NCBI RefSeq assembly: GCF_030758295.1
Contig: NZ_CP132335.1
Coordinates: 248,001-312,000 of the forward strand
From: Pararhizobium sp. IMCC21322
GTDB lineage: Bacteria > Pseudomonadota > Alphaproteobacteria > Rhizobiales > GCA-2746425
Reading direction: 5' to 3'
Length of the DNA: 64,000 nucleotides
Positions 11,091 through 21,717 of this stretch are shown here, piece by piece. Made by a program: the position numbers and the translations under genes. Every line of letters starts with the position of its first letter. Positions within the stretch are counted from its first letter, which is position 1. The notes beneath the pieces were generated by a model. It made no database searches and had not been told where the DNA came from. It saw only the letters and a list, made by a program, of their open reading frames with translations.

Positions 11091-11114
11091 GAAGTCCGTC
11101 CATGGGTAACAAGC

Positions 11115-11270
11115 GAAGCCGCGGCGACCGTGATGCGGTGAACAATCCTGAGAACCTACTTTGTAGGTGGGCACCGTGTGGCCCGGCCCACGAGCCAGGT
11201 CAGGAACAGCTCCCGTTTGGATTGATAAGGCCCCAGGGATAAGTCGTGCAATCACGAGAAGCGCAGCTTC
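11115..11270 (-). ncRNA. ssrS: 6S RNA
   Basis: Global regulator that sequesters housekeeping RNA polymerase by mimicking an open promoter. Read on the minus strand, the ends pair: GAAGCTGCG (11270-11262) with CGCGGCTTC (11123-11115), eight Watson-Crick pairs plus one G-T, closing a ~156-nt RNA, the normal 6S size. Between them are alphaproteobacterial 6S landmarks I recognise: CCCTGGGGCC, GGGAGCTGTTCC, GGGCCGGGCC, CCCACCTACAAAGTAGG (itself a hairpin), and GTTCACCGCATCACGG near the 3' side. The position directly upstream of the 5-FCL gene is the classical one. Ends are set by the terminal helix and could be off by several bases. Confidence 0.88.
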
Positions 11271-11276
11271 CTGACC

Positions 11277-19504: not shown

Positions 19505-20056
19505 TCAGAGATCGTCCTGTGTCTTGAAGGCAGCGCTCAAGCGGGCCATCTGATCGGCCAGCGCGTCTTTGGGGCCGGACTGGGGTACAGGTGGCGGGGC
19601 GCCAAACGACTCGCCGCCCAGCCCAACGTCCAGATGCCGAACCCGTTCCTCCAGACGTGCGGAACGATCAATCAGATCCTTCAATTGATCCGGCAGTTCT
19701 TCCCAGCCAGATCCTGTGCGAGACGGCTGAAGACCGCCAAGGCGCACTTTTGCTTTCTCATCCCGGCCTTGCCCATCTGTCATTTCGCCATCATTGACGG
19801 CTCGCTGCAGCAGCAGCCAGGACGCAATTTGCATCAACCGGGTTGTCAGACGCATGGATTCGCTGGCATAGGCAACCGAACCAAGCCGCGACAGGGCCTT
19901 TGATTCATCACGTCCGGGACCATCCAGATAGGAAGCTGTCTCCTCGATCAGGCGCATACCATTATTGAACAGGGCCAAAAAGCCGTCCCGCTCCGCTAGG
20001 CGGTGCGCAATGGCTATAGCGTTGCCCGCATGTGGCGTCTGGTTGTTGCGCGTCAT
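19505..20056 (-). CDS. DUF1465/RcdA family protein
   Basis: 183 residues, mostly helical: a conserved helical bundle (residues ~12-110: IAIAHRLAERDGFLALFNNGMRLIEETASYLDG...SMRLTTRLMQIASWLLLQRAV) and a polar tail. This is the DUF1465 family, to which the Caulobacter adaptor RcdA belongs; RcdA helps ClpXP degrade the cell-cycle regulator CtrA. Its position beside rpmE matches other alphaproteobacteria. Two features upstream deserve note: a perfect 18-bp palindrome 41 nt before the start and a CtrA-type box about 127 nt before it, both listed separately. The adaptor role in this organism is inference. Confidence 0.8.
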   Translation of the reverse strand: MTRNNQTPHAGNAIAIAHRLAERDGFLALFNNGMRLIEETASYLDGPGRDESKALSRLGSVAYASESMRLTTRLMQIASWLLLQRAVNDGEMTDGQGRDEKAKVRLGGLQPSRTGSGWEELPDQLKDLIDRSARLEERVRHLDVGLGGESFGAPPPVPQSGPKDALADQMARLSAAFKTQDDL

Positions 20057-20096
20057 GATCTGGTGCTCACGTGTGGTGGATTCGACCCGGAACCCA

Positions 20097-20114
20097 CTAT
20101 CATGATCATGATAG
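20097..20114. promoter_or_regulatory. Perfect 18-bp palindrome upstream of the rcdA-like gene
   Basis: CTATCATGATCATGATAG is its own reverse complement. It lies 41-58 nt before the start codon at 20056, a suitable place for an operator. No regulator can be assigned. Confidence 0.4.
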
Positions 20115-20182
20115 GCAGATAAGTGTCAAAAAGGAACTATGAGGCGAGCGGACCCGCCATGCAAGCTGCCGATCCGATAGAG

Positions 20183-20197
20183 TTAATTCTTCGTTAA
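20183..20197. promoter_or_regulatory. CtrA-type binding site upstream of the rcdA-like gene
   Basis: TTAA (20183-20186), seven bases, TTAA (20194-20197): the full TTAA-N7-TTAA consensus of the alphaproteobacterial cell-cycle regulator CtrA. It is about 130 nt from the rcdA start. Confidence 0.55.
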
Positions 20198-20286
20198 TAT
20201 CCACATGCACGCCTGAAGTGCTGCATTTCACCACCCGGAGTGTGACCCGAATCTGGCCCGAATCTGACCAAATTCTGAATTGAACA

Positions 20287-20394
20287 CAAAAAAAGAGCCG
20301 CGGGAGGGAGCGGCTCTGTAAGTCTAACAGGGAGGCGTCCAATCAGATGGGGGAGTGACCATCTGACAGTTCGGAATGTACCGAACACACTTTA
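20287..20394 (-). ncRNA. Candidate trans-acting small RNA with C-rich anti-SD-like loops
   Basis: On the minus strand, after a promoter-like pair, come three hairpins: (1) GTTCGG/CCGAAC at 20386-20369; (2) CAGATGG/CCATCTG at 20365-20344 with loop TCACTCCC; (3) AGAGCCGC/GCGGCTCT at 20317-20294 with loop TCCCTCCC followed by seven T, a classical terminator. The linker between 2 and 3 holds GCCTCCC. Pyrimidine-rich UCCC loops are the hallmark of the rhizobial AbcR (alpha-r15) and alpha-r14 small RNAs that mask ribosome binding sites of transporter mRNAs. No ORF fits. The family assignment is inference; the predicted length is ~108 nt. An alternative reading is an untranslated trailer/terminator of pobA, 230 nt upstream. 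Confidence 0.6.
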
Positions 20395-20400
20395 AGGTAG

Positions 20401-20430
20401 AGAATAAAGGTTAATGTTTACTTAACGCAA
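20401..20430 (-). promoter_or_regulatory. Candidate small RNA promoter with an embedded CtrA-type box
   Basis: On the minus strand TTGCGT (20430-20425) and TATTCT (20406-20401) are separated by 18 nt. The spacer and the end of the -35 contain TTAA-N7-TTAA (20411-20425). The overlap places a CtrA dimer on the promoter itself. Confidence 0.5.
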
Positions 20431-20544
20431 CAAATTTTTTTGAATCAAGCCGATTAAGGAACTGTCAACCATAGGCGCCGGTCAGATAAAGCTGGCCAAG
20501 ACCCGAGGCCTCATCTGAGTGTTATTCCGGTTAAAATAGCCGGT

Positions 20545-21717
20545 TCAAAATGGAAGGCCGACATAGTTTTCAGCGATGGCAGCCTGTTGCGCTTTGGAAC
20601 GGCTCATATAGTCAAGTTGCGCATCCTGCAGGCGATCATCGAAACTGTCAGGCCCTTCAAAATTATGCAGCATCCTTGTCATAAACCAGGAAAAGCGGGT
20701 GGCTTTCCAGACCCGGGCCAAGGCCTTTTGGGAATAGGCGTCAAGCCCGGTTTCAGAGCCCGATTTATAGAAATCAATCACAGCATTGCTGAGATAGAAA
20801 ATATCTGAAGCGGCCAGATTCAGCCCTTTTGCACCTGTCGGAGGCACAATATGAGCTGCATCCCCGGCCAGAAACAGACGCCCATGGCGCATTGGCTCGG
20901 AAATGAATGCCCGCAGGGGTGCCATGTTTTTTTGAAGAGATGGCCCGGTGTCCAGCTGATCTGCAATCGAAGCGGGCAGACGCGCGCTTAACTCACTCCA
21001 AAACCGGTCGTCCGACCAGTCTTCGAGCGTATCCGTTACCGGGCACTGAATGTAATAGCGGCTGAGCGTGTCAGAGCGCATGGAGCAAAGCGCGAAACCG
21101 GCCTGAGACCTGGAATAGATGATTTCTTCGCCAGCCGGACGTGTTTCCGACAGGACACCGATCCAGGCAAAAGGACAGACTTTTTCGTATTCAATGCGAA
21201 AAGTGTCCGGGATCGAGCGACGACAGACACCGTGAAACCCGTCACATCCAGCGACAAAATCACAGTCAATGCGCTGCGTTTCACCATTGTGCAAAAATGT
21301 GACGAAGGGCGCTTCACCATCCAGATTATTCAGCTCAACATCGTCAACTTCATGAAGTATTGTGCCATTCAACCGGTCACGTGCTTCATGAAGATCCCGC
21401 GTCAAATCGGTCTGACCATACACCAGAACCGTCTTTCCGCCCGTCAGACCTTCCAGATCAATCCGCGCAGTCCGGCCACCAAAGGCCATCAAAAATCCGT
21501 TATGGGTTTTCCCAAGTCGGTCCATTTGCGCGCCTGCATCTGCGGCACGCATAAGATCGCAGGTCCCTTGTTCCAGCACGCCTGCGCGAATTCTGGACAG
21601 CACATAAGCTCTGCTTTTGCGCTCAAGAACAATGCTGTCCACACCCGCCAGATGCAACAACTGCGACAGCAACAAACCCGAAGGCCCACCGCCAATGATG
21701 ACGACCTGCGTCCTCAC
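20545..21717 (-). CDS. pobA: 4-hydroxybenzoate 3-monooxygenase
   Basis: Flavoprotein that hydroxylates 4-hydroxybenzoate to protocatechuate with NADPH and O2. 390 residues, the family length. FAD motifs: VVIIGGGPSGLLLSQLL near the N-terminus, DFVAGCDGFHGVCR (~160), and LFLAGDAAHIVPPTGAKGLNLA (~285-306), the GD motif with the PobA-type PPTGAKGLN loop. The start is GTG at 21717 behind a GGGGGAAA ribosome site. A 13-bp inverted repeat AGTTGCTTCAACT (21741-21753) sits 24-36 nt before the start and may be an operator. No pobR-like regulator or protocatechuate genes are nearby. Confidence 0.92.
   Translation of the reverse strand: MRTQVVIIGGGPSGLLLSQLLHLAGVDSIVLERKSRAYVLSRIRAGVLEQGTCDLMRAADAGAQMDRLGKTHNGFLMAFGGRTARIDLEGLTGGKTVLVYGQTDLTRDLHEARDRLNGTILHEVDDVELNNLDGEAPFVTFLHNGETQRIDCDFVAGCDGFHGVCRRSIPDTFRIEYEKVCPFAWIGVLSETRPAGEEIIYSRSQAGFALCSMRSDTLSRYYIQCPVTDTLEDWSDDRFWSELSARLPASIADQLDTGPSLQKNMAPLRAFISEPMRHGRLFLAGDAAHIVPPTGAKGLNLAASDIFYLSNAVIDFYKSGSETGLDAYSQKALARVWKATRFSWFMTRMLHNFEGPDSFDDRLQDAQLDYMSRSKAQQAAIAENYVGLPF

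Follow-up and report, generated by a model that had tools for sequence, protein, structure and literature searches.

The segment upstream of rcdA in the genome of Pararhizobium sp. IMCC21322 raises the question whether a small RNA (sRNA) is encoded there as a unit of its own, and whether this RNA belongs to the regulatory circuit of CtrA. Within the 64,000-nucleotide stretch analysed as a whole (the window), a first-pass annotation had proposed a compact minus-strand unit with a promoter, an embedded perfect TTAA-N7-TTAA box, three hairpins, of which two loops are C-rich like the linker, and a T7 terminator. Apart from a consensus promoter, all of these elements are present. Reading the minus strand from 20425 to 20288, they follow each other in the order CtrA-type box, -10-like hexamer, stem-loop 1 (SL1), stem-loop 2 (SL2), linker and terminator. 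The box TTAAGTAAACATTAA (20411-20425) can be read directly from the sequence, agrees with TTAA-N7-TTAA at 8/8 bases and is kept in homologs. Located 11 nt 3' of it, the hexamer TACCTT (20394-20399) is a putative -10 element, assigned from the TAWWWT-like hexamer which is conserved at the same spacing across the family. Counted from the 5' end at about 20387 that this hexamer predicts, the RNA (20288-20387) would be a short sRNA as first proposed, with a length of about 100 nt and not about 108 nt. SL1 GTTCGGTACATTCCGAAC (20369-20386) is followed by SL2 CAGATGGTCACTCCCCCATCTG (20344-20365) with the C-rich loop UCACUCCC, by the linker GGACGCCTCCCTGTTAGACTTAC, written also GGACGCCUCCCUGUUAGACUUAC (20318-20340), which contains GCCUCCC and the anti-Shine-Dalgarno core CCUCCC, and by an intrinsic terminator (20288-20317) with the hairpin at 20294-20317 and the T-run at 20288-20293. 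The terminator loop is UCCCUCCC, given also as TCCCTCCC, and the T-run of seven consists of the last U of the stem and six more.

A scan of 19900-20900 recovered the terminator, and the consensus scan of the same region revealed no sigma-70-type promoter at the sRNA; the sole promoter-like site precedes rcdA. The promoter of the sRNA is suggested by the alignment, in which the box occupies the -35 position and the -10 candidate TACCTT lies downstream. A perfect 18-nt palindrome CTATCATGATCATGATAG at 20097-20114 (minus strand) overlaps a TTGACA-type promoter match before rcdA and is possibly an operator. The upstream neighbour on the same strand is a pobA-like FAD monooxygenase (20545-21717; Pfam FAD_binding_3), the name pobA being that of the first-pass annotation. 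The main context had been missed: the gene directly downstream of the sRNA on the minus strand (19505-20056, 183 aa) is a DUF1465 gene (PF07323, 174 bits) which matches RcdA (PDB 3ctw) with an E value of 2.1e-33. RcdA is an adaptor of CtrA proteolysis (regulator of CtrA degradation).

The segment 20285-20397 folds with -38.2 kcal/mol, compared with -22.6 +/- 3.0 in 200 shuffled sequences, none of which was as good (0/200; z -5.1). In an alignment of 69 homologs the three hairpins have standard pairs in 96.6% of cells, and 15 of the 19 pairs show changes on both sides. The number of cells changed on both sides is 58, against 9.9 in shuffles (0/500 as high) and 5-16 in slid controls. Helix 1 (SL1) shows both-sided changes in 5/6 pairs, helices 2 and 3 covary in SL2, and helix 4, the terminator, is paired in 99.2% of its cells. 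The covariation supports all three hairpins. The most conserved stretch of the family is the linker core GACGCCUCCCUGU, which is invariant or nearly so in the 69 sequences. C-rich anti-Shine-Dalgarno elements had been predicted and are present; the linker does not form the loop of a hairpin, being unpaired over most of its length and lacking a fixed pairing partner. The C-rich SL2 loop and terminator loop are a genus-specific form; within the window genus UCACUCCC is kept in 5/5 of the members read and the terminator-loop motif UCCCUCC in 4/5.

Using cmscan, the window RNA scored 46.8 bits (E 4.4e-8) with RF02356 (BjrC1505), which is 3.2 bits short of the gathering cut-off of 50, and an ortholog of the same genus reached 50.6 bits, above the cut-off. 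Because its own score lies under the cut-off, the RNA is, by sequence comparison, a homolog of RF02356 and not a formal member. The homology is full-length, with the linker GACGCCUCCCUGUUA, SL2 and the terminator all conserved at the same locus, and members above the cut-off also sit before rcdA; the window copy differs in the SL2 loop (UCACUCCC) and the terminator loop (UCCCUCCC). RF02356 matched in 85 of the 101 genomes of the order, 72 of them above the cut-off, with a single copy in the window genome, and a search of 14 control genomes gave no match. Two RNA matches each were observed in the genomes G021, G028, G052 and G099, and the second copy of G099 lacks the box. The consensus of RF02356 begins 5' of the predicted transcript and includes a TTTA-N7-TTAA box as RNA; model positions 1-40 seem to be promoter DNA and not transcript, and several of the 5' pairs are non-standard in the window copy. 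A contig titled Bacillus subtilis SK6B4 (L138, 7353-7453) carries the sRNA with 72.8 bits, which is the score of the Pseudochrobactrum copy (L118), and is probably a contamination or mislabelled. The Rfam scores for ncS54, SorX and SorY were weak and all below cut-off. EcpR1 of Sinorhizobium meliloti is another sRNA of the Rhizobiales with a link to the cell cycle; its loop motif UCCGCCGCAUCU occurs neither in the RNA nor on either strand of the window, and its neighbours are divK-pleD and rpmG (PMC4414408).

For the analysis of the box 86 of the 89 RF02356 rows were used (all except G091, G098 and the second row for G052), and rows at contig edges were dropped, two from the overall count and three from the fixed-position set. 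Among the resulting 84 homologs within the order the best match to TTAA-N7-TTAA was 8/8 in 40, 7/8 in 40 and lower in 4. At a fixed position, where the box begins 93 to 76 nt 5' of the linker, at least 7/8 bases were found in 74/83 homologs, compared with 0-5/83 in 13 windows further upstream; 200 dinucleotide-shuffled sets averaged 3.1 and never exceeded 11. Varying the spacer gave 76 matches for a spacer of 7 and 8-24 for the others. The RF02356 model spans the box region, so that the count of 84 homologs could be biased if taken alone. Since this could affect the sample, a second model (R1) was restricted to the RNA, with the box excluded, and used to search 240 genomes of the class. R1 matched with E <= 0.01 in 69/240 genomes, many of the weaker matches being possibly due to chance, and 30 loci were listed, 27 of them of other orders. 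Among these listed matches of other orders, 21/27 loci have a box of at least 7/8 in the region 50-20 nt upstream of the RNA, compared with 4/366 over 14 control windows; some of the 6/27 listed loci without the box may be unrelated CCUCCC sRNAs. The suhB sRNAs encoded by these genomes served as a control for specificity, and 0/30 had the box within 110 nt upstream. Judged from these counts, the CtrA-type box is a trait of the sRNA family, within the order and beyond.

The genome of the window (5.25 Mb) contains 37 TTAA-N7-TTAA sites compared with 132 of the form AATT-N7-AATT. With just 37 such sites in 5.25 Mb a perfect box at the sRNA is not commonplace, and the scarcity may reflect avoidance outside functional sites. 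Four of the 37 sites are located in the window, at 20183, 20411, 23366 and 42618.

In Caulobacter, TTAA-N7-TTAA is the full CtrA palindrome, and full sites with the 5' end near -35, or at -39 in the case of ctrA P2, activate in the predivisional cell (PMC4287350). At the sRNA, the inferred start places the 5' end of the box near -38. The window genome encodes CtrA (421 bits), and CtrA was identified with E <= 1e-100 in 55/61 genomes of the order. We infer that CtrA binds the box, activates the promoter and brings about transcription of the sRNA.

The gene rcdA is located downstream of the sRNA, on the same strand, in 78/86 loci of the order, with an estimated gap of 105-442 nt in all of the 78 loci except one (about 1.2 kb). 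The remaining 8/86 loci have no adjoining rcdA, and two of their genomes have no rcdA match at all; the box is retained with the RNA in 7/8 of them. Among the listed loci of other orders rcdA lies downstream in the same orientation in 12/27, and no rcdA was present within about 1.5 kb in 15/27; the box is found in 11/15 of these latter loci. As most of the loci without an adjoining rcdA keep the box, the sRNA seems to exist independently of that gene. Looking from the side of rcdA, which was found in 93/101 genomes of the order, the sRNA precedes the gene in 80 genomes according to the model and as a diverged copy in 6; it is located elsewhere in 3, and none was present in the stretch read in 4. 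The six diverged copies were first judged by eye and all later matched by R1, with weak scores for G034 (26.5 bits) and G076 (25.6 bits). Genomes with rcdA have the sRNA in 89/93 cases versus 2/8 without rcdA (Fisher p 4e-6, a guide value as the genomes are related). Before rcdA the window carries a second TTAA-N7-TTAA box (20183-20197, minus strand), placed between the sRNA terminator and the gene and weakly conserved: a box before rcdA was rejected as a conserved element, with at least 7/8 in just 17/78 loci and 8/8 in 4/78. On the other side of the sRNA, DUF1192 is the upstream gene in 57/86 loci of the order and in 13/27 of the listed loci of other orders; the pobA-like gene takes this place in just 4 of 86 loci, all of the window genus.

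Several named relatives carry the sRNA upstream of rcdA, with R1 scores of 43.0 bits in S. meliloti (L186, 1704-1808), 42.8 in Sinorhizobium sp. K101 (L187), 44.3 in Shinella sp. (L188) and 49.3 in Methylobacterium bullatum (L189). R1 found no match at the Sphingomonas rcdA locus (L190) or at the diverged DUF1465 gene of a Rhizobium leguminosarum plasmid (L191). Inspected by eye, S. meliloti and Shinella each show a perfect box in front of the RNA plus another one in front of rcdA, and Methylobacterium shows a 7/8 box in front of the RNA. The record CP090106.1, labelled S. meliloti pSymB, has 3.7 Mb, carries the rcdA homolog and rpmE and looks like a mislabelled chromosome. For S. meliloti, CtrA motifs have been reported 5' of an rcdA start site (PMC3616915) and a CtrA ChIP signal has been described at the rcdA promoter region, with rcdA expression unchanged on CtrA depletion (PMC4433202); agrobacterial rcdA is reported to have several start sites, with a CtrA site predicted upstream of the gene (PMC10469942). 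The S. meliloti and agrobacterial data fit a separate RNA promoter without proving one. The oddity of S. meliloti, a bound rcdA promoter and no response of rcdA (PMC4433202), may mean that the bound target is the RNA; the second box before rcdA is an alternative, and since it precedes the gene there, and in Shinella as well, the ChIP signal is not assignable to the RNA.

Transporter mRNAs are the target class of AbcR RNAs, and the first-pass annotation had proposed an AbcR-like damping of such mRNAs. To our knowledge, AbcR has not been linked to CtrA. The genes following GGGAGG sites encode periplasmic solute-binding proteins in 52/134 cases among the matches read, versus 3/33 following AGGAGA control sites (50 read, 17 short ones dropped; Fisher p 0.0008). 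A longer pattern, AACAGGGAGG-N3-10-ATG, matched in 68/101 genomes; 90 matches were read, of which 64 have an ORF of at least 80 aa and 26 shorter ones were dropped, and 25/64 of the genes look like solute-binding proteins. With the scrambled control ACAAGGGAGG the number was 27/70 (90 read, 20 short ones dropped). The four extending bases add nothing (25/64 versus 27/70), and an sRNA-specific pairing with binding-protein mRNAs was rejected; as this class turns up just as often behind a scrambled GGGAGG site, it is favoured through the Shine-Dalgarno core alone. The class counts were obtained by reading the N-termini and are backed by Pfam tallies. When 18 of the 52 counted genes were checked singly, 18/18 matched a binding-protein family, L472 with 25.1 bits under the cut-off of 27, and two doubtful, uncounted genes gave no such match. 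Within the window, GGGAGG-type sites precede a TRAP-binding-protein-like gene (38291, plus strand) and the next gene (39374, plus strand). The proposed AbcR-like action on transporter mRNAs is plausible by way of the Shine-Dalgarno core, and the targets named here are candidates.

Genes of the CtrA circuit were compared in the same respect. Using the linker alone and 55 nt around each start, the duplex energy was -14.9 for 77 rcdA start regions (with starts guessed by script, a few of which look wrong) versus -14.4 shuffled, -14.3 for 28 ctrA regions versus -15.5, and -13.3 for 27 gcrA regions versus -13.9. As these energies are no better than those of the shuffles, ctrA, gcrA and rcdA do not stand out as preferred targets of the linker in the 55 nt compared.

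The computations establish an RNA-like structure with covariation, the homology, the family-wide box and the linkage to rcdA and DUF1192, and we consider it likely that the locus encodes a stand-alone, CtrA-activated and trans-acting sRNA of the RF02356 kind which pairs with G-rich ribosome-binding sites. The sRNA would be driven by its own promoter, in which the full CtrA palindrome replaces the -35 element, and phosphorylated CtrA would activate it in the late part of the cell cycle. Shortly before rcdA, the sRNA's own terminator would end the transcript. The exposed C-rich stretches, namely the SL2 loop, the invariant linker GACGCCUCCCUGUUA and the genus-specific terminator loop, would then pair with G-rich ribosome-binding sites and block translation of a set of mRNAs, with those of periplasmic solute-binding proteins as the likeliest class. 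Together with the adjoining rcdA, the sRNA would form part of a CtrA feedback neighbourhood.

A different reading takes the same transcript as a cis-acting leader: CtrA would drive a transcript starting at the box, and the terminator and hairpins would act as an attenuator which sets the level of rcdA mRNA. The position of rcdA on the same strand in 78/86 loci of the order and in 12/27 of those listed for other orders speaks for a leader, as do the several start sites and the predicted CtrA site upstream of agrobacterial rcdA (PMC10469942), but rcdA is missing from the stretch read at 8/86 and, among the matches listed, 15/27 loci, where the box is mostly kept (7/8 and, for the listed loci, 11/15). 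Moreover, pairing in the terminator is almost complete (99.2% of cells), conservation is highest in a linker that has no constant pairing partner, and in S. meliloti CtrA binds the rcdA promoter region and yet its depletion leaves rcdA unchanged (PMC4433202). We therefore regard a leader as unlikely. The simplest reading, a mere terminator of the upstream gene with transcripts arising from read-through, could appeal to the fact that this gene (pobA-like here, DUF1192 elsewhere) is on the same strand; as structure, linker and box are conserved although the upstream gene changes, and two hairpins before the terminator covary, we give it almost no credit.

Known RNAs also come into question as relatives. 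Membership in AbcR (alpha-r14, RF02344), which the first-pass annotation had in mind, did not hold: the covariance search with this model gave 25.4 bits versus a cut-off of 58.8, and that with alpha-r15, which we take to be RF00519 (suhB/mmgR), gave 23.2 versus 41. The C-rich anti-Shine-Dalgarno elements are common to both AbcR1 and the window RNA, transporter mRNAs are possible targets, and many of them match the Shine-Dalgarno core; nevertheless these weak matches lie far under both cut-offs, the genome has a separate suhB gene with 68.3 bits, and suhB genes have no box (0/30). An AbcR or suhB/mmgR RNA is thus refuted as a matter of membership and very improbable as an explanation, and a shared regulon would still allow an AbcR- or suhB-like way of working. 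Another candidate is CcnA of Caulobacter crescentus, an ncRNA for which activation by CtrA is presumed and which pairs through a C-rich loop; the window RNA could be its Rhizobiales counterpart, by descent or by function, and feed back on ctrA and gcrA translation. S. meliloti, which is named in PMC8959179, does have a member of the sRNA family. However, the start regions of ctrA and gcrA show no energetic preference for the linker (linker alone, 55 nt around the start), RF02356 has no match in the 14 control genomes, Caulobacter vibrioides among them, and CcnA sits at the replication origin (PMC8959179). Putative CcnA homologs are listed in other families there, so that another RNA may hold this place. 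Compared by description, and with ctrA/gcrA pairing unsupported for the linker, a counterpart of CcnA is a quite improbable reading.

Coming back to a CtrA-activated, trans-acting sRNA, the first-pass annotation had regarded cell-cycle control of such an RNA as new. CtrA-linked ncRNAs have been published: besides CcnA (PMC8959179), six ncRNAs with CtrA motifs were counted in Caulobacter (PMC4287350). A CtrA site before rcdA is already published as well; that it fronts an sRNA was not found in print, as far as we searched. In the literature on CtrA, sRNAs and rcdA, with subscription papers mostly outside the coverage, we found no report of the present RNA, and under the same coverage no described function for the named family RF02356/BjrC1505; the name BjrC1505 appears there a single time, in the table of one paper, and RF02356 in none. 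New, as far as the searches go, is that the box is a family-wide feature which extends past the order, and that the RNA is linked to rcdA and DUF1192. Such a box, retained by one sRNA family throughout an order and into others, with rcdA adjoining, would place the RNA in the core circuit and not among local add-ons; it points to a possible RNA branch of bacterial cell-cycle control and gives BjrC1505, a family known by name only, a likely regulator and a neighbourhood. A further RNA gene of the window, located at 11112-11272 on the minus strand, is that of 6S RNA (RF00013, 63.2 bits).
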